Both the position numbers and the translations under genes were made by a program. A stretch of 64,000 nt of DNA from Desulfobacterales bacterium (GTDB taxonomy: Bacteria; Desulfobacterota; Desulfobacteria; Desulfobacterales; JARGFK01), in contig JARGFK010000002.1 in assembly GCA_029211065.1 (NCBI GenBank), positions 1-64,000 on the forward strand. Reading direction: 5' to 3'. Shown one piece after another: positions 12,054 to 50,870 of the stretch. Positions within the stretch are counted from its first letter, which is position 1. Each line of letters begins with the position of its first letter. The notes under the pieces are model-generated. The model had not been told where the DNA came from, made no database searches, and saw only the letters and a list, made by a program, of their open reading frames with translations.

Positions 12054-13898
12054 CTATTTCCTTTTTACACGGTCAATTCGATCCAGGTATTCTTTGGCAA
12101 GTTTATTGTTCGGATTTGCTTCTATGGCCAGTTTAAGGTTTTTGACAAATGGTTCCCGCTTGCCAAGCCGCTGCTGAACAATTGCAAGATTAAACAAGGC
12201 CTCATCCATAAAAGGCGGAGAAAGTTTAACCGTGCGTTCGAACATTTCCTCGGCCTTCCCGTAATTTTTTATTTTGGCATAAATATAACCGAGATTGTAG
12301 AAGGTGTTGGGATGCTGCGGGTTTAATTCGGCTGCCTTGCTGTATGCTGCGATGGCTTTTTGATATTGTTCCCGGTGCGTATAAAAAAGCCCAAGTTGAA
12401 AAAGTGCTTCGGGGTCTCCCGGATTCAACTCAACCGCCCTGATAATTAACCCTTCTGCCTTTTCGGGATCTGCCCCAGCCAGCTCTGATGCCTGTCCCAG
12501 CAATGCTTTGGTATAGTACGGCAACAGTTCCCCTTTTCGAGAGGGGCTTTCCGAAACAGCCTTTTGTAACAATTCAGCTGCTTTTGAATACTGCTTTTCT
12601 TCAAAAGCGGTCACGGCGGCGGCCCTTAATTTGTCCGAACCTGCAGGGCTTAAGCCGCCACCGCTGTCGCCGGACAAGAACACCTTTCGGTAAACAAATA
12701 AAGACCATAGCACAAGTATCCCCACAAAAAAAACCGCAGCCGCATACTTTACGCCGCGCCTTTCGCTCCAATTGGATTTTTCGGCAGTGGTTGATACTGC
12801 GGCTTTTTCTTCGGCCGGCCCCGGGTCCGGCTCGATCACCTCGGTTATGTTTGAAGCTGCGTCTTCGAAACCTGTTAATGTGTCTGCCGTGTCGTATCCT
12901 GCGCCCGGGAGCTCCGTCGGCGCCTGAACCTGCATTGCGGCACGCATCGCCAGATCTTCATCTGAAATCTCTTTCTCAAAGAGACGATGCATATACTGAG
13001 AAATACCCTGGGTAGACGGCCGGTTCGGCAGCTTATTTAACAGCCCTTCAATGTCCGCCTGCATTTCACCGCTGGAAGGGTAGCGGTCGTCCGGATTTTT
13101 GGCAAGTATCCGGTTGAGAATTCTAAAAAGCTCGGGATATCGATAACCAATCACATTTTCAGGCGGCTCAAACCGGGCTTCACGCACCCGGGAAAGCACC
13201 TGGAGGGTGTCTTCGCCGGTATACATCCGCCGGCGCGACAGCATTTCATAAAGGAGTATACCCGTCGCAAAAATATCGGAACGATGATCAATCACCTTGC
13301 CATCGGCCTGTTCCGGTGACATATAAGCGACTTTTCCCTTGATAATCCCCACCTGGGTGTCTTTGCTCTGGTTCCTGGCTTTGGCAATGCCAAAATCAAT
13401 AATTTTCACCTGCCCGCTGAACGTTATCAAAATATTCGGCGGGCTGATATCCCGGTGGATAATTCCCAACGGTTTTCCCTGAAAATCGCGCAGCTTATGA
13501 GCGTATTCCAGCCCGTCACAGATCTGGGCGGTGATGTAAAGCGCTGTTTCCAGATCCATCGGCATGTTTTTTTGTTTGGACTTATTTGTCGACAGGCGCA
13601 GGTCTTTGCCGGCCAGCAATTCCATGGCAATGAAATAGCTGTTTGCCATGGTGCCGAAATCATAAATCTGGACAATATTCTGGTGCTGCAGCAGGGCCGC
13701 GAGCTTGGCCTCATCAATAAAAGAAGATACCAGAACATCATCGAAAGCAAGGTACGGAAGGATTTTTTTAACGGCGACAATCTTCTCAAAACCCCGATCG
13801 CCGATGATTTTGGCCCGGTACAACTCGGCCATACCGCCGGAAGCGATTTTGTCCATCAGCAGATATTTTCCATATTGTCTGGGTTGAAAAGGTGTCAT
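12054..13898 (-). CDS. Transmembrane Ser/Thr protein kinase with C-terminal TPR repeats
   Basis: 614 residues. Hanks-type kinase domain at about 10-285: glycine loop IASGGMAELYRA, VAVKK (Lys44), HRDISPPN (Asp150), DFG (168-170), YMSPEQ as the APE-like motif. A disordered acidic linker (about 320-375) leads to one membrane helix (about 385-405), then several TPRs outside the membrane (about 425-610, e.g. DPEALFQLGLFYTHREQYQK and HPNTFYNLGYIYAKIKNYGK). All key catalytic residues are present, so it should be active. External TPRs could sense or scaffold an envelope protein; the LysM gene immediately downstream is the best candidate. Confidence 0.88.
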   Translation of the reverse strand: MTPFQPRQYGKYLLMDKIASGGMAELYRAKIIGDRGFEKIVAVKKILPYLAFDDVLVSSFIDEAKLAALLQHQNIVQIYDFGTMANSYFIAMELLAGKDLRLSTNKSKQKNMPMDLETALYITAQICDGLEYAHKLRDFQGKPLGIIHRDISPPNILITFSGQVKIIDFGIAKARNQSKDTQVGIIKGKVAYMSPEQADGKVIDHRSDIFATGILLYEMLSRRRMYTGEDTLQVLSRVREARFEPPENVIGYRYPELFRILNRILAKNPDDRYPSSGEMQADIEGLLNKLPNRPSTQGISQYMHRLFEKEISDEDLAMRAAMQVQAPTELPGAGYDTADTLTGFEDAASNITEVIEPDPGPAEEKAAVSTTAEKSNWSERRGVKYAAAVFFVGILVLWSLFVYRKVFLSGDSGGGLSPAGSDKLRAAAVTAFEEKQYSKAAELLQKAVSESPSRKGELLPYYTKALLGQASELAGADPEKAEGLIIRAVELNPGDPEALFQLGLFYTHREQYQKAIAAYSKAAELNPQHPNTFYNLGYIYAKIKNYGKAEEMFERTVKLSPPFMDEALFNLAIVQQRLGKREPFVKNLKLAIEANPNNKLAKEYLDRIDRVKRK

Positions 13899-20607: not shown

Positions 20608-20648
20608 AAAAAGAACCGTGGGAGTTGGGAGTTCCCACGGTTCTTTTT
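20608..20648 (-). terminator. Attenuator terminator in the aroF leader
   Basis: A perfect 16-bp stem (20608-20623 with 20633-20648) and a nine-base loop. Read on the minus strand it is followed by a run of U from the A-tract at 20604-20612. It lies between the leader peptide stop (20670) and the aroF start (20535), the position expected for a regulated intrinsic terminator. On the plus strand it also has a short T-run. Confidence 0.8.
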
Positions 20649-20893: not shown

Positions 20894-22468
20894 CTATTGA
20901 AACTCATTGATATGCTTTTTAATGCGCTCCCTTCTGATTTCAGGAATAAGTACCCAGGGACCCTGGCGATTCTCGATGTCCTGCAGCAAGTCCTCAAGGC
21001 CCATTTTTATTTGGTCCCGGTCGTTGTTGCTCTTTTTGCGGATCCGTTCAAACTCAATCAGAAAAATTATCTCCGCCCTATATTTCGGGGGCAGCGACAG
21101 CAATCCTTTAATCTGCCTTTGATCACGCTGCTGGAGGTTGCTGATCTGACTGCTGTAGACGGCTGCGAAATGGTTTAAAGCTTCTGTATAATTTTTTTCA
21201 TCAAAACGGCCAAGGGCCTGTTGGATTTCAGCGCCACTATCAACAACGCGCGGTGGCGGCGCAGATACGACGGGCGCTGGTGGTGCGGCCGGTTCAGCTG
21301 CAGGCTTTTGCGCCGCCGCCAGCGCCTGTTGCTGCTGTGTCTTTAGCGCCGCCTGAAGCTCGGTCGCTGCCGCGGTCTTCTCCGCTACGATAAACCCGAC
21401 TTCGATCCCGGGCGAAAGACCGGCGGCCTGCTGACCCGCTCGACTGTAAGCCGCCAGCGCCTCATCGATTCCCGCGACTGTCTGGGGCGCTTTTCCCAGC
21501 GCAAGGTCGCCTTCTTCCACCGTTTTAAAAAATGCCGTCAGACCCGTCGCCTGCGACTGCTGCGGACCCGATAGGCTCGCTGTTAACAGTCCCCGGCTGT
21601 CGTACAACCGGCTGCGGGCAGCCTCCCACTGCCCCGGCTTTAACCCTGACAATACTTGGGCAAACATCGTTGCCGCCAACCGCTCCTGTTCTATTTCAAC
21701 CCTGGTGATCGTATCCTGAAGCGGCGGTGATGCATCCGATTCTATCCGACCTTTTCCATGTGAATAGACCGCACGAACGCGATATGTGTCCACCTGCCCG
21801 CTTCTTATCGGAACAGCGACCGTTGTCTCTTCAACGGTTTGATAGGGTTTGTCATTAATAAAAACGTTATACTCGGTTGGCTGCTGAGCGGTTTGGGGTT
21901 GGCGCCAGCCGATCCGGTTCTTGTCGTTTTCCCGTTTAAGAGACAATTCCTCTGGTCTTGCGATCAGAAAGCTTGTTTCAACTTTATAAACGCGATTATC
22001 AAGCGTATAAACCACAGCGGCGTATCGCCCGATATTTTGGTCGCTGACATTATATTTGTTCGGATTTTGCAGGGGTACCCGGTCCATGCCAACATGGAAC
22101 TCAACATCCTTTCCGGTGTCAGCCGAATAAATCTTCAGCTTTTCATTATCAAGTGTTTTGATGATACCGTAGGTACGCTGGTAGGTGATCACTCCGGCCG
22201 CCTCTTTGGTCTGCATGGTCGGATCAAAAATTTGTTTTAAAATAATCAAATTCTTTATCAGTTGTTTTTCGACGCCGCTGCTTTCGGCCAGCTTTTTAAA
22301 CAGGAGATGAAATGGATAATCTTTATAGGCGCCCTTTTCGGCTTCAAAGGTTTCCCGGGTAATCAGCTCAATCCCCACCGCCGGTGAAAACGACAACCCC
22401 ACGAGGAAAAAGGCGGCAACAACGGCACGACCTGAAATACTTCGTATCCATGTTTTCATTTTTTTCAA
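20894..22468 (-). CDS. Secreted protein of unknown family, fifth gene of the vWA-ABC cluster
   Basis: 524 residues; no family recognised. N-terminal signal sequence (GRAVVAAFFLVGLSFSPAVG) points to export. The region after about residue 190 (IGWRQPQTAQQPTEYNVFIN, TYRVRAVYSHGKGR, then SDASPP) looks like a fibronectin type III-like beta domain. An alanine/glutamine/proline-rich linker follows (about 385-425), and the end has a TPR-like helix pair (FDEKNYTEALNHFAAVYSS) and a basic coiled segment. A TTG start at 22468 has AAGGAT six bases before it; the ATG three codons later is possible. It begins 25 bases after the ABC ATPase stop, so it belongs to that operon. Confidence 0.65.
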   Translation of the reverse strand: MKKMKTWIRSISGRAVVAAFFLVGLSFSPAVGIELITRETFEAEKGAYKDYPFHLLFKKLAESSGVEKQLIKNLIILKQIFDPTMQTKEAAGVITYQRTYGIIKTLDNEKLKIYSADTGKDVEFHVGMDRVPLQNPNKYNVSDQNIGRYAAVVYTLDNRVYKVETSFLIARPEELSLKRENDKNRIGWRQPQTAQQPTEYNVFINDKPYQTVEETTVAVPIRSGQVDTYRVRAVYSHGKGRIESDASPPLQDTITRVEIEQERLAATMFAQVLSGLKPGQWEAARSRLYDSRGLLTASLSGPQQSQATGLTAFFKTVEEGDLALGKAPQTVAGIDEALAAYSRAGQQAAGLSPGIEVGFIVAEKTAAATELQAALKTQQQQALAAAQKPAAEPAAPPAPVVSAPPPRVVDSGAEIQQALGRFDEKNYTEALNHFAAVYSSQISNLQQRDQRQIKGLLSLPPKYRAEIIFLIEFERIRKKSNNDRDQIKMGLEDLLQDIENRQGPWVLIPEIRRERIKKHINEFQ

Positions 22469-22493
22469 TTGTTATCCTTTTAATAAGTTGGGT

Positions 22494-23309
22494 TCAAATG
22501 GTAACGGCCGCTGCATTATCCAGTTCCCTGATCTTTTTTTTAAAAAAATTTTGGGGTGAATCGTTCGCATATATCTCAATGTGTCGGCGGCCAATCTCCG
22601 GCGGTCTGTTTTTCTGGCGGTTCTCCGTAACCGCACAAAGGGTGTCGACGAAACGAAACTGTGGATCGTTTTTGATTTCATTTCCCATTCCATGATCGAT
22701 AAAAAAAACGGTTTGCAGTTTCTGCCGATAGGCTTTCTCCAGAATTTCCCAAAAATAGTGCCGCCGTTCCGCGTCCAGATTTGAAAGCGGCTCATCCAGA
22801 AACCATACCGGTTTTTTTTCATCCAAAATGATATCCATCAGTATTTTCTGCTGCTGCCCGCCCGACAGCAAATCCGGATACTCCTGATATGAAAAACCGG
22901 CCTCTTTGCTAAGATCCGAGCCGTTTAAAATGGTATAATTGTCGCGGGTCGATACCGGCAGAAAAAAAGCCTTCTGTGGGAAAATACAAAATTGCCCTTC
23001 ACGTATCTTGGCAGCCTGAATATGATTAAATCCCGGCCGGTTGTACGCTTCCGCGTTGTAGGCGATGCGGCCGTTGTCGCCGGCGGCTTTTTTTCCGATA
23101 TTTCCGGCGGTCAGGGCCAGCATATTCAAAAAGGTGGTTTTGCCGGACCCGTTATCGCCGCAGAGGAAGTAGAACCCGCTTTTAAACTCCAGCTGGGGCG
23201 ATTGTGATGATGTAAACGTAATCGTAAACGCATCATCCCATTTTAAAACCAGTGGGAATTTAACGCTGAAACAGCTTTGCACGGCGCTATCGTCCTTTGT
23301 GAAGAGCAT
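22494..23309 (-). CDS. ABC transporter ATP-binding protein of the vWA-FtsX-like cluster
   Basis: 271-residue cytoplasmic ATPase subunit with all ABC motifs: Walker A GDNGSGKTT (51-59), Q-loop FPQK (Gln112), signature LSGGQ (148-152), Walker B VWFLDE (168-173), D-loop SNLD and H-loop FFIDHG (His206). It should therefore hydrolyse ATP. The N-terminus (about 45 residues before Walker A) is diverged. The gene overlaps the membrane-protein gene by 23 bases and probably powers it. Resemblance is closest to small export or LolD/MacB-type ATPases, but I cannot place it in a named subfamily. Confidence 0.85.
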   Translation of the reverse strand: MLFTKDDSAVQSCFSVKFPLVLKWDDAFTITFTSSQSPQLEFKSGFYFLCGDNGSGKTTFLNMLALTAGNIGKKAAGDNGRIAYNAEAYNRPGFNHIQAAKIREGQFCIFPQKAFFLPVSTRDNYTILNGSDLSKEAGFSYQEYPDLLSGGQQQKILMDIILDEKKPVWFLDEPLSNLDAERRHYFWEILEKAYRQKLQTVFFIDHGMGNEIKNDPQFRFVDTLCAVTENRQKNRPPEIGRRHIEIYANDSPQNFFKKKIRELDNAAAVTI

Positions 23310-24741
23310 ATAAATTCAGGGTATCTCCGGTAAACTGATTAAAACACCATTTATTAATCGGATAAAACCCCGCCGCCACCGCGATAAATGAAGCCAGCAG
23401 AGGCAGCAGCAGCGTAAGTCCGCCGCCGCTGCTATAGAGGTAAAAGAAATATCCTGTCAGAATCCCGCTTTTCACCATGAGCATGAGGCTCAACGGCAGC
23501 AGCCAGAATATGAACAATATCTCCTGCACGCGATTCTTGAACATGAGCAGGAAAGCGATTTCTGTTTTTAAATGAATAAAGGCAAACAGGGAAATCATAA
23601 AAGGAAACGCAATTCCCATGGATAGATCCGTCAGATAAAAATGAATGTGGTTGGCTTGAATATCATCATTTAGATTCTTGACCTTGTCCTGGAGGATTTG
23701 TGACTTTTCATAAGAAAACAGGTAGTGCCCGTTAAAATGCAGCTGGTTCAGATAGTCCATAAAGTCTTTTTTTATCCGGATATTCTGATACAAGAGCCAG
23801 TTCCAGTGCGGTTTAAGCAAACCGGGTATATATAAAGGCACATACCGGGGATAGATGTCGATGTCTTTGTACAGAGCCTTGCCGGTATATATCTCCGGAA
23901 CCTGCAAAAAAGCATTATCGGTTTCAATGGTGCCGTCAGGATTGGATAGGACGGAATGGAGCAGATCCATAATATCGGTGGTGTTGTCCTGCTGGATATG
24001 CGCCCAGATGTGCAGAAAGTTCATCGGGACAACGATCTCAACCCGGCTCAGATACAGATTGGGTTCATCCGCTTTATTCCCGGCCGTCCGCTTCAGGCTG
24101 TCAACCATTGTCTTTCTCACCGAATAGATAACGTCCTTTCTCTTATCGCGTGAAAGGGATCGAATCATATCGGCGATATCCACCAAGTCCGCCTTAAGGG
24201 TATCGTGCCGGTTTCGGACGGTGTCTTCATCCAGGCGGTTTCCATTATAATCCATATATTGATTTCTGACCCTGGATCGATAACCGTCCACGTGGTCCAC
24301 CGTATAAAATTCGGCAACCGCTTGGCGGAGGTTAAACATGCCATAGAGCAACAACATGGCCTCTTTTTCATCCGTGTCCGAACCGCTTTCCTGTACAGAA
24401 GGCAATAAAAAATGAATATACAGATTATTTTGATAAATAAAGGCTTTCTGAACGATATTCGCGCCAAGGTCCAGCAGCGGCTGGCGATGATTGTATAGAA
24501 ACCGTTCAAAATCGTTTACGCTGCGCATTCTTGTGAAAAAAACCTTAAAGGCTTTCTCTGCCAGAACTTCCGTTTTCAACGTTTCGGTTTTATGAAACTT
24601 CATGAGATAACTGCAGGTATTAAAGCCCATCATGAACAAAAAGGTAAAAACCAGAAAAACGAATCGTTTCCGCGTGGACTTTCGGAAAAGCATTTTCAGA
24701 CAAACGACCTGTAGTTTAAGAAAGTCCCTGCTGAAAAACAT
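23287..24741 (-). CDS. Divergent FtsX/MacB-topology membrane protein of the vWA-ABC cluster
   Basis: About 484 residues. A basic N-terminus (FRKSTRKR) precedes one membrane helix (about 27-46); a long hydrophilic, presumably periplasmic domain (about 47-365) follows, then three helices (roughly 370-390, 410-435, 440-462). Between the first two of these lies TEIAFLLMFKNRVQEILFIF, which recalls the cytoplasmic loop of FtsX/MacB/LolC proteins (EIGxLRAxGxxxxxI). With the ABC ATPase downstream this is the layout of a mechanotransmission (type VII) ABC complex. Start at 24741 is preferred; a TTG nine codons upstream gives 493 residues. Sequence of the external domain is not recognised. Confidence 0.65.
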   Translation of the reverse strand: MFFSRDFLKLQVVCLKMLFRKSTRKRFVFLVFTFLFMMGFNTCSYLMKFHKTETLKTEVLAEKAFKVFFTRMRSVNDFERFLYNHRQPLLDLGANIVQKAFIYQNNLYIHFLLPSVQESGSDTDEKEAMLLLYGMFNLRQAVAEFYTVDHVDGYRSRVRNQYMDYNGNRLDEDTVRNRHDTLKADLVDIADMIRSLSRDKRKDVIYSVRKTMVDSLKRTAGNKADEPNLYLSRVEIVVPMNFLHIWAHIQQDNTTDIMDLLHSVLSNPDGTIETDNAFLQVPEIYTGKALYKDIDIYPRYVPLYIPGLLKPHWNWLLYQNIRIKKDFMDYLNQLHFNGHYLFSYEKSQILQDKVKNLNDDIQANHIHFYLTDLSMGIAFPFMISLFAFIHLKTEIAFLLMFKNRVQEILFIFWLLPLSLMLMVKSGILTGYFFYLYSSGGGLTLLLPLLASFIAVAAGFYPINKWCFNQFTGDTLNLYALHKGR

Positions 24742-24812
24742 TTTCAGGTCTCGATGGGAAGTTGGCAACCGGCTGAGCGTCCGTCAAAAGCCCCCCCGGC
24801 CGGCACCGGGGT

Positions 24813-25688
24813 TTACCGGATGTCGTCATAGGACCATAGGGTTATCACTATCTTCCGGTTCATTCCGATTTCATATGCATAGCGCTTTATTTCTTCTGAA
24901 AATTTCTTGCCGAACCGCGACACGATGATGATCTGATCTGCAAAATCGGTGCCCAGGCGGGATTTAAGATTGTCCAGCACTTTTTGGTAATACGTCAGTG
25001 TTCCGTCTTCCAGGGAAAGCCCCATTTTATCGATGTCCAGCCCTTCGGCGGTCTGCAACGTTTTGAAATAGTAACTGTTGTAATGACCGGCTTCATAATA
25101 ATAAAAATGGGGGGTGTAGTCCGGATTTTTCAGCAGCACCTTCACGCTGCCGTAATACTTTCTTAAATCCACATCAAAACTGTTAAAGTCCAAAAACAAA
25201 AACCGTCTGGCCCCGCTTGGCAGACGGTCCGCTTCCAGCACGGGTTTTACCGGGACAACACTGGTGATGATCAAGAGGGGATAATATTCGTTGGGATCCA
25301 GTCGAACGTCCACCGCCCCTTCAACAATGCGATAATTGATGTTCTGCCGCTGCCGGTCATATTCAAATTCCAGTTTAAACCGGCCCGTGGCCTGATTTTT
25401 TACAATCAACTGAAGATCGTAGTTTCGCAGGTAGGACGGCGGATCCGCCACCCGCTCCCAATAGCCCAGTTCCCCCAGAGAGATGGACTCCTGTTTGGCG
25501 TTTTCAACCAGGGCGATATAGTTATATCCGGCGGTGGTGCCGGTTACCCCGACGCTGAAGGTTTTATTTTTATCGTTGCTTAAATTGATCTGCCGGTCTT
25601 TAAACAGGCCCTCGGCGCAAACATTTTCGGTGAGACCCCAGCAGGCAATTAAAAGGATCCAGAACCATTGAATCGGCTGCCTTTTCAT
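24813..25688 (-). CDS. Secreted protein of unknown family, second gene of the vWA-ABC cluster
   Basis: 291 residues with an N-terminal signal (IQWFWILLIACWGLTENVCA, cleavage near AEGLF) and no other membrane helix. The middle is rich in beta-strand-like stretches (YDLQLIVKNQATGRFKLEFE, LLIITSVVPVKPVL, ARRFLFLDFNSFDVDLRKYY). The C-terminus (FADQIIIVSRFGKKFSEEIK) resembles an alpha/beta fold. AAGGAAG precedes the ATG by six bases. It lies between the vWA gene and the membrane gene on the same strand. No function can be assigned beyond membership of the envelope complex. Confidence 0.6.
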   Translation of the reverse strand: MKRQPIQWFWILLIACWGLTENVCAEGLFKDRQINLSNDKNKTFSVGVTGTTAGYNYIALVENAKQESISLGELGYWERVADPPSYLRNYDLQLIVKNQATGRFKLEFEYDRQRQNINYRIVEGAVDVRLDPNEYYPLLIITSVVPVKPVLEADRLPSGARRFLFLDFNSFDVDLRKYYGSVKVLLKNPDYTPHFYYYEAGHYNSYYFKTLQTAEGLDIDKMGLSLEDGTLTYYQKVLDNLKSRLGTDFADQIIIVSRFGKKFSEEIKRYAYEIGMNRKIVITLWSYDDIR

Positions 25689-25809
25689 TTTCGTCTTCCT
25701 TTTATGCTGCTTAACGGATTTATCCGGCGGCTGAAACCAGACGTTATTTTATGAACAACCCGCGCCTTTCCCGGACGATGGTATACCAGACAACCCGATA
25801 CAATTACTG

Positions 25810-28134
25810 TCACTGACCGTAAAGCTCTTCAACTTTTAAATACATGAATTTACTTTGAACGGCCTGATTGAAAGAATTGAGATGGAATCCCCGCCCGGCC
25901 AGGTAGTCGCCCAGTTTTTCATTGGTTTCTCCCAGGGATTTATTCCATTGGATGTTCTGACCCGCCTCTCTATTGGTCAGCGCAGTGTAGAAGACCTCAT
26001 CAGCAGTTTTAAAGGTCTTTTTTTCGATGAGCGGTTTAATATGATCATAAAGTTTTCGGCTCTTTTCCACATCGTCCACACTGACCAGAGAGTTGATAAT
26101 GATCAGTTTCTTGAGGTCCGATAAGGTCACATCGTCCTGGGTTCTAATCGCCCGCAAATAGGATTCCACCGGTTTGGCGGGGATTGCGATCCTTTCTTCC
26201 CATACCGCCGGGTTGTCAACCGAATGAATGAACTTGACCACATGGTTTAACACCTGAATTTTGCGGTCGCTCCATTTCCGCATCTTTTCCATAAGATTTT
26301 CATCAGAAAAATACAGGATGACATCCTTTGACAGTTCATTTCCCCGGGCGTTTTTAAATACGTGATCAATATAGGCTTCAATTCCTTCCAAAAGGCGGCG
26401 GTGCTGCCTATTAAAATCCTCCTGGCGTTGGGCCTGAGATTGCAGCGCTGCCGTTTCAAACTGAAACCGCCGGAAGCTGACCGCCTGGCCAGGCAAGCTG
26501 CTTTTTTCAAAACGGGCAATCATGTCTTCCAGTCCTTTATATACGTCGGCGGGGGTGTCTTCCAGCCGTGAGCTGGGATTTCTGACACCGTGTCGGCTGG
26601 GATAAACAAAGTATATCCGCAGATTCAGGAGCTGAGCCCTGGCAACGATGTCGCTGAAGGCCCCATCCGTCATGTCATTGGGGCCTGCGTCGGTTATGAT
26701 AAACAGCAACTTTTCATGCAGCGGCAGCATCAGCTTTTCTTTTTGCAGCGACTCGATTTCATCCAGCACTTTTATAAACGCTCTTGTCAAAGGTTCGGCA
26801 TAGTTTCGATCCCCGGTTTTGTGGGCGAACTCGATACTTTCCGGTCTTTTGACCCTCATAAATTGGGGCTCGCCCGTCATGTCACGGTCACTCGCCGGGG
26901 TATCCCAGTAGGCATAAACCCGGTTCATTCTGAGCCCGATCCCTTTTTCTTTCATTGCGCTGACGCTCTTGTTAAAAGACTTCACATAATCCGCAAAAGG
27001 GCGCATACTTTCTGACACGTCGATTAAAAAGAAAGTGTTCAGATTTTTTTTGATGGATTCTCCCAGGAGCCGCATCAGGCGGGGAGTAAACGCGCCGGGA
27101 ATGAATACTTTGGCGATTTGATTTTCGGCCACATCTTCCGGATGGGTTAACTGGGGAAAGCCGAAATGGGAATAAAATTTATGCAGGCTTTCCTGGTCCA
27201 GTTTTTCAACAATATCATTAAAAAGCCTTTCCTTTAAATAAATATGATCCACATAAAAATTGTTTATTTCGGTAGATTCCCTGGCAGGCTCACGATCATT
27301 CTTATCATTGAAAAACGGAACGGTTTGAAGCGGATGATAATACAGCCGCGAACGCCAGAGGGTTATGTATTTTTTTTCGACCCAGCCAATGATGCCAAAT
27401 TCCTCGATGTTATTGCGGTAGTCGAGCTCGTTAAAATCTTTGCCAAGCAAATAATACCCTTCGCGATAATCGAGGATTTTATAAAAATCATAATCCACCA
27501 GACTCTCCGGGGGGGTGGCGGTGTCTTTTTTACTGCCCTGCCAGCTGTTCCAGATGGTGGGGAACTCATCGGCCTCTCCCGGAAGGCTCAAAAAACCATA
27601 TATGGGAATATACGCCCGTTGTTTATCCAGCAGGGCATTATACCATAAAAAGGCTTTCTCAAAATCCGGCAGATCCATGCGGAATGTTTTTTTATCTTTT
27701 TGCCGCACCATTGTCAGCTGCAGGGTGTCCCAGTTTATTTCAGTGATGTAAAAAACTTCCTGAAATTGAAGCGGGTCTTGGGGGACCAGGCTGGTTAGGC
27801 TGTTTGCCGGAAGAAAGGCCTTGGCGTGCGCAATAAAGAAGGCGCCGTGATTGGGATCGGAACTGAAAACATACCGCTGTCCGCCGCCGCTTTCAGCTCC
27901 TTTTTTTTCAGCCGTCTGCAGATTTTGATCCAGTTCGCGATAAAGCCGCCGGACGGTCTGGATGAATCCGTCCGGTTCAAATTGACCTTCCCGGTCTCTA
28001 TCAATGGTGGTGGGACATTTGATATTTACCCGTCTGTCGGCATTAAAATCCGGGGAAACAGCTAGGGCAGCGTTGAGGGAAAGTAAAAAAGCAGCGCCCA
28101 TAAAATACAGTATCATTTTCCGCAAACAAACCAT
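25810..28134 (-). CDS. Secreted von Willebrand factor A protein with SH3-like N-terminal region, first gene of the cluster
   Basis: 774 residues. Signal peptide (MILYFMGAAFLLSLNAALA). An SH3-like stretch lies at about 220-262 (YYLLGKD ... GWVEKKYITLW). The vWA domain starts at about 365 with the complete MIDAS motif DVSES (Asp372, Ser374, Ser376) and continues through LLFIITDAGPND, so it should bind a divalent metal and a protein ligand. A helical C-terminal part of about 200 residues follows. GGAGG six bases before the ATG. First gene of the five-gene minus-strand set. The SH3 plus vWA order recalls TssR of Bacteroidetes type VI secretion, but no other secretion genes are present. Confidence 0.75.
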   Translation of the reverse strand: MVCLRKMILYFMGAAFLLSLNAALAVSPDFNADRRVNIKCPTTIDRDREGQFEPDGFIQTVRRLYRELDQNLQTAEKKGAESGGGQRYVFSSDPNHGAFFIAHAKAFLPANSLTSLVPQDPLQFQEVFYITEINWDTLQLTMVRQKDKKTFRMDLPDFEKAFLWYNALLDKQRAYIPIYGFLSLPGEADEFPTIWNSWQGSKKDTATPPESLVDYDFYKILDYREGYYLLGKDFNELDYRNNIEEFGIIGWVEKKYITLWRSRLYYHPLQTVPFFNDKNDREPARESTEINNFYVDHIYLKERLFNDIVEKLDQESLHKFYSHFGFPQLTHPEDVAENQIAKVFIPGAFTPRLMRLLGESIKKNLNTFFLIDVSESMRPFADYVKSFNKSVSAMKEKGIGLRMNRVYAYWDTPASDRDMTGEPQFMRVKRPESIEFAHKTGDRNYAEPLTRAFIKVLDEIESLQKEKLMLPLHEKLLFIITDAGPNDMTDGAFSDIVARAQLLNLRIYFVYPSRHGVRNPSSRLEDTPADVYKGLEDMIARFEKSSLPGQAVSFRRFQFETAALQSQAQRQEDFNRQHRRLLEGIEAYIDHVFKNARGNELSKDVILYFSDENLMEKMRKWSDRKIQVLNHVVKFIHSVDNPAVWEERIAIPAKPVESYLRAIRTQDDVTLSDLKKLIIINSLVSVDDVEKSRKLYDHIKPLIEKKTFKTADEVFYTALTNREAGQNIQWNKSLGETNEKLGDYLAGRGFHLNSFNQAVQSKFMYLKVEELYGQ

Positions 28135-28469
28135 TCGTCACCTCCACTTACCAGAAGCATTTCGCCTTAATGTCGGCAAATTTATTATCCGTCCCGGTGT
28201 TGTCGAAGCTTATATTGATTTAGGACTGAAGGATTTTACCGGGCCTATCAAAAAGTCGTGTTCAACCGGGCGCCTGCAAATCGGTTATCGCATCCGGTTT
28301 CAATAATGCTTGGAATTCCATCGGTGTTGTCTGAAACGGTTTACACCTGACTCGGATGCCCCCGCCGTGAAGACAGAAATGACAAGAATTTGTTTTTTGT
28401 TAGAGGAGTATAGTGAATTGAGACGTTTGTGTCAAATAAATTGCTGTTTTTTAAAACAGACCGTGGATA
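28135..28469. other. Intergenic region upstream of the vWA cluster
   Basis: 335 bases between the vWA gene start and the end of the Na/phosphate cotransporter gene, both on the minus strand. It must hold the promoter of the five-gene cluster, but no clear -35/-10 pair stood out. A small CTGTTTT/AAAACAG palindrome near 28443-28460 could end the cotransporter transcript. Confidence 0.35.
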
Positions 28470-45019: not shown

Positions 45020-45682
45020 TTATTTATCTGTCCGCATGGTTCTTAATTTTGCCAGCTCCCAAATATAATCATACAAATGAAGTCCTTTGCTGGCAGCAAC
45101 AAGTTCACCGTCACCCACTCCGATCTCATGGGCCATGTATTCTTTTAAGAGCTGAATGGCCGCCAGGTTGGCCGGAAAGCCGTTCCACAGATCCCAGGAC
45201 CTGAAGTAAACCATAAAATGAAGTTTGCCGTATCGGATACGGGTATCGATCCCGCGCAGACAGGGCGGATCGTTTAAATATAAAGCCTCCGGGTCCCCTA
45301 CGGTCATGTATGCCTGGTTGGTGCCGTAACCGTCTTCTGTATACATCCGAATGACCTCGGAAATTTGCGACTCAAGATACTGGCCGTAGGTATAGTCCTC
45401 ATTGGGTTGTTTGGCGGATGTCATCAGATAGGGCAGGTATTCCTCCACATATCCATCCGCAACAGGGTTGGGAATACCCAGGGCGGGGGGAATGTCCGGG
45501 ATAAGGGGTTGAACGCCGGGATATTGAATGTGCACGGTTACATAATCAAACTCAAGCCGCTCCTGACCCTCACAACTTCCTCTTTCGATCACATAGGTAT
45601 GGCCGAAGTCTAAAATCTTGTAAACACACTGGAACCAGGCGTCCGGAATATCTCTGGCTTGAATGGATATGATATTGAGCAT
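45020..45682 (-). CDS. thyA: Thymidylate synthase, methanogen-type (ThyA superfamily)
   Basis: 220 residues. ThyA-like catalytic region: NDPPCLRGID with the nucleophile Cys141, KLHFMVYFRSWDLWNGFPAN (the RSxDLxxGxPxN motif, 161-172) and DGELVAASKGLHLYDYIW. The short length and the sequence resemble archaeal thymidylate synthases rather than the 264-residue bacterial ThyA. Converts dUMP to dTMP, or, in some short relatives, hydroxymethylates; cofactor could be a pterin. It lies six bases past gyrB and probably is the last gene of dnaN-gyrB-thyA. Start has no strong ribosome-binding site of its own. Confidence 0.75.
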   Translation of the reverse strand: MLNIISIQARDIPDAWFQCVYKILDFGHTYVIERGSCEGQERLEFDYVTVHIQYPGVQPLIPDIPPALGIPNPVADGYVEEYLPYLMTSAKQPNEDYTYGQYLESQISEVIRMYTEDGYGTNQAYMTVGDPEALYLNDPPCLRGIDTRIRYGKLHFMVYFRSWDLWNGFPANLAAIQLLKEYMAHEIGVGDGELVAASKGLHLYDYIWELAKLRTMRTDK

Positions 45683-45688
45683 TTTGTA

Positions 45689-49277
<3,589 letters not shown>

Positions 49278-49607
49278 TTGTATTCCCTATTATTATATAT
49301 TTATAGTAATATTAATAAGGGGTGTTAATAAATATAATAACATTATAAATTACTTATTTTATTTTAAAAAATATATAATTTTATTATTAATAAAGTTAAA
49401 TTTTATATAAAAAATTTCAACCTTATATACCATTACGATTCGTCTTTCTCATAAGTAGAAAGTTATAAACAATTTATTAAATTATTTTTTATATTATAAT
49501 ATGTTTAAACTGAAAAATATCCATATATTGTATTCAATTTTATTTGGAATAAATATATAGCGTGTTTTACTTGATTTTACAACAAAATTATCATTTTAAA
49601 GGTCTTT
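49278..49607. other. Very AT-rich divergent intergenic region upstream of dnaN, possible unwinding element
   Basis: 330 bases composed almost wholly of A and T, between dnaN (minus) and the EndoQ gene (plus). One TTATAAACA (near 49464) and a TGTTAATAA (near 49323) loosely resemble DnaA boxes, with two mismatches each. Sits where an origin often lies, but dnaA is not here and boxes are poor, so oriC is only a possibility. Confidence 0.35.
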
Positions 49608-50870
49608 ATGAAATTTATCGCAGATTTTCATGTTCATTCACGATTTTCCAGAGCAACCTCTCAAAAACTTGACCTTGAAAATTTATATATTGCCGCACAA
49701 TTGAAAGGTATTACCGTTGTCGGGACCGGCGATTTTACCCATCCCCAATGGTTTTTGGAAATAAGTGAAAAACTTGTCCCGGCTGAAGACGGGCTCTATC
49801 GCTTAAAAAAAAATATCGCTGCCGTTTGCGATAAAGCGGTCCCCATATCCTGCCGGTCAAAGGTACGTTTTGTTTTAACAACTGAAATCAGCAATATTTA
49901 TAAAAAAGGGGATAAAACGCGCAAGAATCATAATTTGGTTGTTGTACCCGATATAGAGACGGCGGCCCGGTTCAGCGAACGGCTGGGTGCTATCGGTAAT
50001 ATTCATTCAGACGGCAGACCCATACTGGGTTTGGATGCCAAAAAACTGTTGGAAATATTGATTGAAACGTCAGAAGAATCCTTTTTGATTCCTGCGCATA
50101 TATGGACGCCCTGGTTTTCGGTAATGGGTTCAAAATCCGGTTTTGACTCCATTGAGGAATGTTTTGAAGAACTCAGCGAATACATTTTTGCAGTTGAAAC
50201 CGGGCTTTCTTCAGACCCGGCCATGAACTGGCGGGTGTCTTGTCTGGATAAATACACATTAATATCAAACTCGGATGCGCATTCACCGATGAATCTGGGC
50301 CGAGAAGCCAATATTTTCAACACCGATCTTTCCTATCGGCAAATATTTTTGGCCATCAAAAACAGAAACCCAGAAAAATTTTTAGGAACGTATGAGTTTT
50401 ATCCGGAAGAAGGCAAGTATCATTTTGACGGGCATCGAAATTGCAGAGTTCGTTTCTCTCCAAAAGAATCCATCCAAAACAAAGGAATATGTCCTCAATG
50501 TGAAAAACCGTTGACGCTTGGGGTGTTATATCGGGTTGAAGAATTGGCGGACAGGCCGCTAAATGGTATGCCTGAAAAACATCCGCCCTTTTACAGCGCT
50601 ATTCCCTTAACGGATATTTTAGCGGAAATTTTACAGGTAGGTCCCAAAAGCAAGACCGTTCAAAACCATTACCGCATCCTTCTCGACAAATTCGGTTCCG
50701 AATATAACATTTTACACGGCATATCGACGGAAACCATAGAGCGGTCCGGCGCGACCCGCCTGGCAGAAGCCATCTCCCGGATGCGGCGCGGAGAATTGTC
50801 TATATATTCTGGGTATGACGGAGAATTCGGCAAAATTCAAATTTTTAATCCCGGCGAGAGGGAAAAATAA
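49608..50870 (+). CDS. Endonuclease Q-type PHP-family nuclease
   Basis: 420 residues. PHP metal site: ADFHVHSRFSRATSQ, GTGDFTHPQW, a further LIPAHIWTPWFSV and ISNSDAHSPMNLGREAN. A zinc-ribbon-like region (CPQCEKPLTLGVLYRVEEL, about 292-312) and a C-terminal helical part with ADRPLNGMPE match EndoQ, which nicks DNA 5' to deaminated bases (uracil, hypoxanthine, xanthine) and abasic sites. In many bacteria this module is fused to a UvrD-type helicase. Here it ends at a TAA, and the helicase reading frame continues in the same phase directly after it. AAAGGT before the ATG. Confidence 0.8.
   Translation: MKFIADFHVHSRFSRATSQKLDLENLYIAAQLKGITVVGTGDFTHPQWFLEISEKLVPAEDGLYRLKKNIAAVCDKAVPISCRSKVRFVLTTEISNIYKKGDKTRKNHNLVVVPDIETAARFSERLGAIGNIHSDGRPILGLDAKKLLEILIETSEESFLIPAHIWTPWFSVMGSKSGFDSIEECFEELSEYIFAVETGLSSDPAMNWRVSCLDKYTLISNSDAHSPMNLGREANIFNTDLSYRQIFLAIKNRNPEKFLGTYEFYPEEGKYHFDGHRNCRVRFSPKESIQNKGICPQCEKPLTLGVLYRVEELADRPLNGMPEKHPPFYSAIPLTDILAEILQVGPKSKTVQNHYRILLDKFGSEYNILHGISTETIERSGATRLAEAISRMRRGELSIYSGYDGEFGKIQIFNPGEREK

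Follow-up and report, generated by a model that had tools for sequence, protein, structure and literature searches.

The 64,000-nucleotide stretch analysed here, hereafter the window (contig JARGFK010000002.1 of a Desulfobacterales bacterium, positions 1 to 64,000), carries five genes on its minus strand that encode, in order, an exported von Willebrand factor A (vWA) protein, a small exported protein, a membrane protein, an ATP-binding cassette (ABC) ATPase and an exported repeat protein; we refer to them as genes 1 to 5. By analogy with known machines, we consider there to be about an even chance that this operon acts in the manner of a type VII (mechanotransmission) ABC system on a periplasmic complex centred on the vWA protein, with a permease family that is not linked by sequence to FtsX, MacB or LolC. 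Type VII ABC systems spend ATP to produce movement beyond the membrane, and as a rule they have a periplasmic partner, which sets the function (PMC12646458). The operon combines an ATPase, exported partners and a four-helix membrane protein whose external domain is large, which makes a type VII-like mode of action the most likely one. A preliminary description made from the sequence alone had recognised no described system with this gene set, and in keeping with this no account of the gene set or of the combination was found in the literature searched (open-licence papers).

The five open reading frames (ORFs) are assigned to gene 1 (25810..28134, 774 amino acids; ORF, homologues and Foldseek), gene 2 (24813..25688, 291 amino acids; ORF and homologues), gene 3 (23287..24768, 493 amino acids as listed; ORF, hydrophobicity and AlphaFold model), gene 4 (22494..23309, 271 amino acids; ORF, Pfam and motifs) and gene 5 (20894..22468, 524 amino acids as listed; ORF and homologues), all on the minus strand. 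Genes 3 and 5 are listed with TTG starts, and the starts of their homologues point to ATG codons a few codons downstream, near 24741 and 22459, respectively. Genes 1 and 2 lie 121 bp apart and genes 2 and 3 lie 44 bp apart; genes 3 and 4 overlap by 23 bp, and 25 bp separate genes 4 and 5. The tight arrangement on one strand described previously is thereby borne out; the overlap of genes 3 and 4 recurs in four other genomes that carry the operon (G576, G466, G626 and G406). A sigma-70-type promoter-like site (TTGACA-17-TATACT, 11/12 consensus, 28407..28435, minus strand) lies ~270 bp upstream of gene 1, and a terminator-like 19-pair hairpin with a T-rich tail (20608..20648, scored on the plus strand) lies past gene 5; the hairpin is A-rich on its other side and could act on both strands. 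Both are pattern matches, each is the top-scoring site of its kind in the scanned region, and together they bracket precisely the five genes, which form one compact operon with a putative promoter upstream and a strong hairpin downstream. Because the gene order is conserved in seven other genomes and codon position 3 is the most variable in genes 1–4, the four tested (for the vWA gene 0.50 versus 0.20 and 0.12), the ORFs can be regarded as genuine genes under purifying selection rather than chance ORFs.

The product of gene 4 matches Pfam ABC_tran above the cut-off (E 2.1e-12) and possesses a Walker A motif (51–58), the Q-loop glutamine Q112, the LSGGQ signature (148–152), the Walker B residues D172/E173, the D-loop aspartate D179 and the switch histidine H206. 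All of these are invariant in eight homologues, and the complete set of ABC motifs claimed for the protein is indeed present; judged by these motifs it is a functional-looking member of the ABC ATPase superfamily. The genome that encodes it contains no close paralogue. A role of the operon as a defence system was considered and rejected, PADLOC giving no match for the other four proteins and matching gene 4 to ATPase components only (best mad3, E 3.5e-17, stretch 142–206).

The gene 3 protein includes four hydrophobic segments centred near residues 46, 391, 423 and 462, and in all homologues the N-terminus (+5 to +10), the loop between transmembrane helices TM2 and TM3 (+1 to +3) and the C-terminus (+1 to +5) carry a net positive charge. 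In the AlphaFold model a helix precedes a long TM1 helix (30–70), followed by a mixed external domain (~76–352), a long stalk helix (353–407) bearing TM2, a cytoplasmic loop (~400–415), and then TM3 and TM4; the C-terminal HKGR is invariant. Hydrophobicity, charge pattern and model agree on the one N-terminal and three C-terminal helices reported earlier, and point to the topology of type VII permeases, namely four TM helices, an external domain between TM1 and TM2 and cytoplasmic N- and C-termini. The external domain itself is smaller than first estimated, comprising about 280 residues in the model rather than roughly 320. With type VII proteins gene 3 also shares a cytoplasmic coupling loop between TM2 and TM3 and an amphipathic helix before TM1; YbbAP departs from the four-helix plan in having ten TM helices. 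A layout matching that of gene 3 has been described for MacB (PMC5985334).

The gene 1 protein consists of a signal peptide (~1–25), an N-terminal region (26–360), a vWA domain (~364–590) and a conserved helical C-terminus; the stretch ~215–270 has an SH3b-like look and is at most a candidate for such a domain. Although Pfam VWA scores in 2/8 homologues only, and there below threshold, Foldseek aligns the modelled domain to many vWA and integrin I domains with a probability of 1.00 (best E 5.4e-05). The AlphaFold model is poor outside the vWA domain (mean predicted local distance difference test (pLDDT) score 41) and better within it, and the comparison of structures confirms, at the level of the model, a Rossmann-like vWA fold. 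The secreted vWA protein proposed previously therefore stands, the fold by Foldseek and the signal peptide by sequence reading. Its metal ion-dependent adhesion site (MIDAS) had been called complete, which is an overstatement: DxSxS (D372, S374 and S376) and D482 are invariant in homologues, but the position at which a Thr ligand is usual reads D-[RH]-[ND]-[YF]-x-E-P and contains no conserved Thr. Metal binding is for this reason likely but not certain.

Genes 1, 2 and 5 all encode a Sec-type signal peptide at the N-terminus, as had been claimed, and since no lipobox is conserved among the homologues of the exported proteins, their products look like plain Sec signal-peptide proteins. Apart from the gene 4 ATPase, the operon proteins have no sequence family match in Pfam, NCBIfam or PDB. 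For gene 2 the libraries searched gave no relatives, and its strong matches are confined to genomes that carry the cluster. The idea that its C-terminal part (FLDFNSFD...DGTL) constitutes a second, degenerate vWA domain is no more than a guess, as hhalign against gene 1 gave 0.3% and no useful alignment. The gene 5 protein is built from a conserved N-terminal domain, a 119-residue repeat and a related C-terminal domain that is TPR-like in look, with a possible beta-sandwich at ~180–255. A fibronectin type III (FN3) domain is not claimed for it, the sole indication being a sub-threshold beta-sandwich match (RGI_lyase, E 0.017) with no PDB sequence match. Copies of the repeat number one in the window (matched at residues 261–369) and in G466, two in G576, six in G662, eight in G401 and nine in G406. 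Two of the six repeats in G662 (locus L028, 3416–6763) are almost identical, pointing to recent duplication within the array or its contraction.

Taken together, these features suggest the following mechanism. Two gene 4 ATPases would sit beneath two gene 3 membrane proteins, and ATP binding and hydrolysis would push the cytoplasmic TM2–TM3 loop of gene 3. The long TM1 and TM2 stalk helices would transmit this motion to the large external domain, which would act on the exported vWA protein together with the gene 2 and gene 5 proteins, so that the work would be done in the periplasm and no substrate would pass across the inner membrane. The gene 5 repeat protein may serve as a spacer or tether, a role that its variable length suits. 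We infer the 2:2 assembly, the mechanical coupling, the contacts between the parts and their periplasmic placement; contact with the vWA protein and mechanotransmission are deduced from topology and gene linkage. An ABC ATPase with periplasmic partner proteins is common to the operon and to MacAB-TolC, LolCDE-LolA, FtsEX-EnvC and YbbAP-TesA. In the operon, the part of the partner probably falls to a vWA protein, accompanied by two orphan exported proteins. A type VII ABC system takes its definition largely from the periplasmic partner that it moves, and the operon names the machine and its candidate partners together; the 1-to-9-fold repeat number in gene 5 makes a role as spacer or ruler directly testable.

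Several results weigh against a type VII assignment. Gene 4 lies far from every named ABC subfamily; the FtsE model ranks below the AztA, ABC-F, ThiQ and ECF models, and as far as sequence can tell the protein is not specially close to the LolD/FtsE family. Pfam, NCBIfam and PDB sequences offer no relevant match to gene 3. In hhalign comparisons with the FtsX domain (PF02687) it reaches a probability of 0.3% and a score inside the shuffled range, whereas FtsX domains of the same genome, used as a positive control, score 96–99% against each other. Scores against a local FtsX hidden Markov model (HMM) fall below the shuffle median. Foldseek returned no FtsX, MacB or LolC match and no known type VII fold, and the external domain matched no known fold, with a model of moderate quality (mean pLDDT 61.6, predicted template modelling score (pTM) 0.50). 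The membrane protein had been described as FtsX/MacB-like; profile–profile comparison, local HMM, Pfam and Foldseek all leave that link without support while the sequence positive controls worked, and because the sequence test failed we do not file gene 3 in the FtsX/MacB family. It may still be a true member that has diverged beyond sequence detection, a matter of ancestry that is compatible with a type VII-like action and that we regard as a serious if somewhat doubtful possibility. Topology, position of the coupling loop and charge pattern are the same, and the best hhalign segment, though below significance, falls on the coupling loop of gene 3 (EIAFLLMFKNRVQEI over EIGIFRAIGFRKSHV). We would tentatively entertain, to a similar degree, the proposal that the operon encodes an ABC permease family not described before, which either converged on FtsX/MacB or stands very far from that family, and that this permease drives a vWA complex of adjustable length in the periplasm, its working partner being a free exported vWA protein. 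Should gene 3 prove unrelated to FtsX, the type VII design would have arisen twice.

A conventional ABC importer or exporter, in which gene 3 carries a substrate through the inner membrane with one of the exported proteins as its binding or adaptor protein, would account for the fact that gene 4 scores as close to importer ATPases (AztA, ThiQ, ECF and MalK) as to FtsE. Exported partners beside an ABC pair are common in importers. The four TM helices per subunit, the large external insertion and the long stalk helices of gene 3 are nevertheless unlike the classical importer folds, and none of the operon proteins matches a solute-binding family; we therefore hold conventional transport to be unlikely. 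An ATPase is also paired with a vWA protein in the MoxR–vWA systems (CbbQ/CbbO and NorQ/NorD). These are cytoplasmic and employ an AAA+ ATPase, in contrast to the ABC ATPase, membrane protein and exported vWA protein of the operon.

Somewhat less likely again is a sensor of envelope damage or force, in which the vWA protein senses and the ABC pair relays its state across the membrane. The precedent is TagQRST-PpkA, the threonine phosphorylation pathway of the H1 type VI secretion system (T6SS) of P. aeruginosa, where a vWA sensor operates jointly with exported proteins and an ABC pair (PMC11881912; PMC3224232); in design, the operon has in common with it an inner-membrane ABC pair, exported periplasmic partners and a vWA domain outside the membrane. 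In TagQRST-PpkA the vWA domain resides on the kinase, in the operon on a soluble exported protein. Furthermore, the operon has no kinase gene, encodes none of the cytoplasmic output that a sensor would be expected to have, and lacks a conserved lipobox, whereas TagQ is an outer-membrane lipoprotein. Most carriers are also devoid of a T6SS: TssC/VipB was found neither in the window's genome (listed as 100% complete) nor in 5/7 other carriers. It is also very improbable, on evidence from the T6SS, that the operon is an accessory of a T6SS, of gliding or of another named machine, a match that the preliminary description had allowed for. Two carriers do possess a T6SS, but in both it lies on a different contig, and the T6SS stretches examined contain no relatives of the operon proteins, so that a part in the T6SS itself is largely refuted.

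Searches with tblastn and profiles recovered the same five genes, in the same order and orientation, in seven further genomes (eight in total) from several Desulfobacterales families: G401 (Olavius algarvensis Delta 4 endosymbiont), G406 (Desulfobacterales MAG8), G422 (ALSabin.42), G466, G576, G626 (bin.469) and G662 (Candidatus Desulfatibia vada). Gene 1 of G422 is split over two contigs, and gene 5 is cut by a contig end in G422 and G626. Identity to the window copy is 59–73% for gene 1, ~51–68% for gene 2, 43–65% for gene 3, 47–70% for gene 4 and ~34–51% for gene 5 (longest aligned stretch). Trees of genes 1–4 share the groups (window, G576) and (G466, (G662, G626)); they also place G401, G406 and G422 together, in an inner order that is not settled, and gene 2 of G401 was left out of the trees. 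With gene trees largely concordant and flanking genes that differ between families, the five genes are co-inherited as a unit.

Among 390 genomes of the order the vWA profile matches nine. Eight of these have the gene; the ninth (G426; locus L012, 2208–2339) has a 44-residue remnant of its C-terminus with no other operon gene nearby, likely a relic of operon loss. Across the class (360 genomes) the gene 2 profile finds seven carriers, and in one genus it gives two further matches that are weak and frame-broken. Elsewhere in the phylum, sampled evenly, the gene 1 and gene 3 profiles yielded nothing convincing; the sole extra match is weak and broken by stops. When 84,980 species were scanned with a peptide pattern, five loci emerged, all in Desulfobacterales or Desulfobacteraceae metagenome-assembled genomes or in the Olavius Delta 4 symbiont, and no relatives were present on the plasmids or viral contigs searched. 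On these sequence searches, in which very distant relatives would be missed, the operon is to date known from only a minority of Desulfobacterales; a conserved neighbourhood across Desulfobacterota had been suggested as a check, and the neighbourhood is indeed kept in eight genomes, but the phylum is too wide a frame for it.

In G401 (locus L009, 8238–9153 and 4596–5975) gene 2 is frameshifted and an in-frame TAA lies in gene 5, the other three genes being open, which reflects either early decay in the symbiont or an assembly error. G232, a congener of G576, lacks the five genes and keeps the gene order of G576 as far as the methyltransferase gene located after gene 5; its other flank has no match to G576, denoting a synteny break rather than a clean empty site. 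Where G576 has the operon, G232 (locus L070, 10220–13797) encodes a CbbQ/NorQ-type AAA ATPase and a 925-amino-acid vWA protein; the presence of a second ATPase–vWA pair at the same break is possibly a coincidence.

Elsewhere in the window, a Ser/Thr protein kinase with C-terminal TPR repeats (12054–13898) is located 7 kb from the operon, with no link shown between them. A 220-amino-acid protein (45020–45682) between gyrB and a penicillin-binding protein gene matches the second half of thymidylate synthase only, and a 420-amino-acid ORF (49608–50870) beside the presumed replication origin has no Pfam match at E 1e-5. The genes gyrB and dnaN (45689–49608) lie beside a stretch of 33% GC (48–50 kb), the cumulative GC skew reaches its minimum near 50–54 kb, and the chromosomal replication origin probably lies here, some 20 kb away from the operon.

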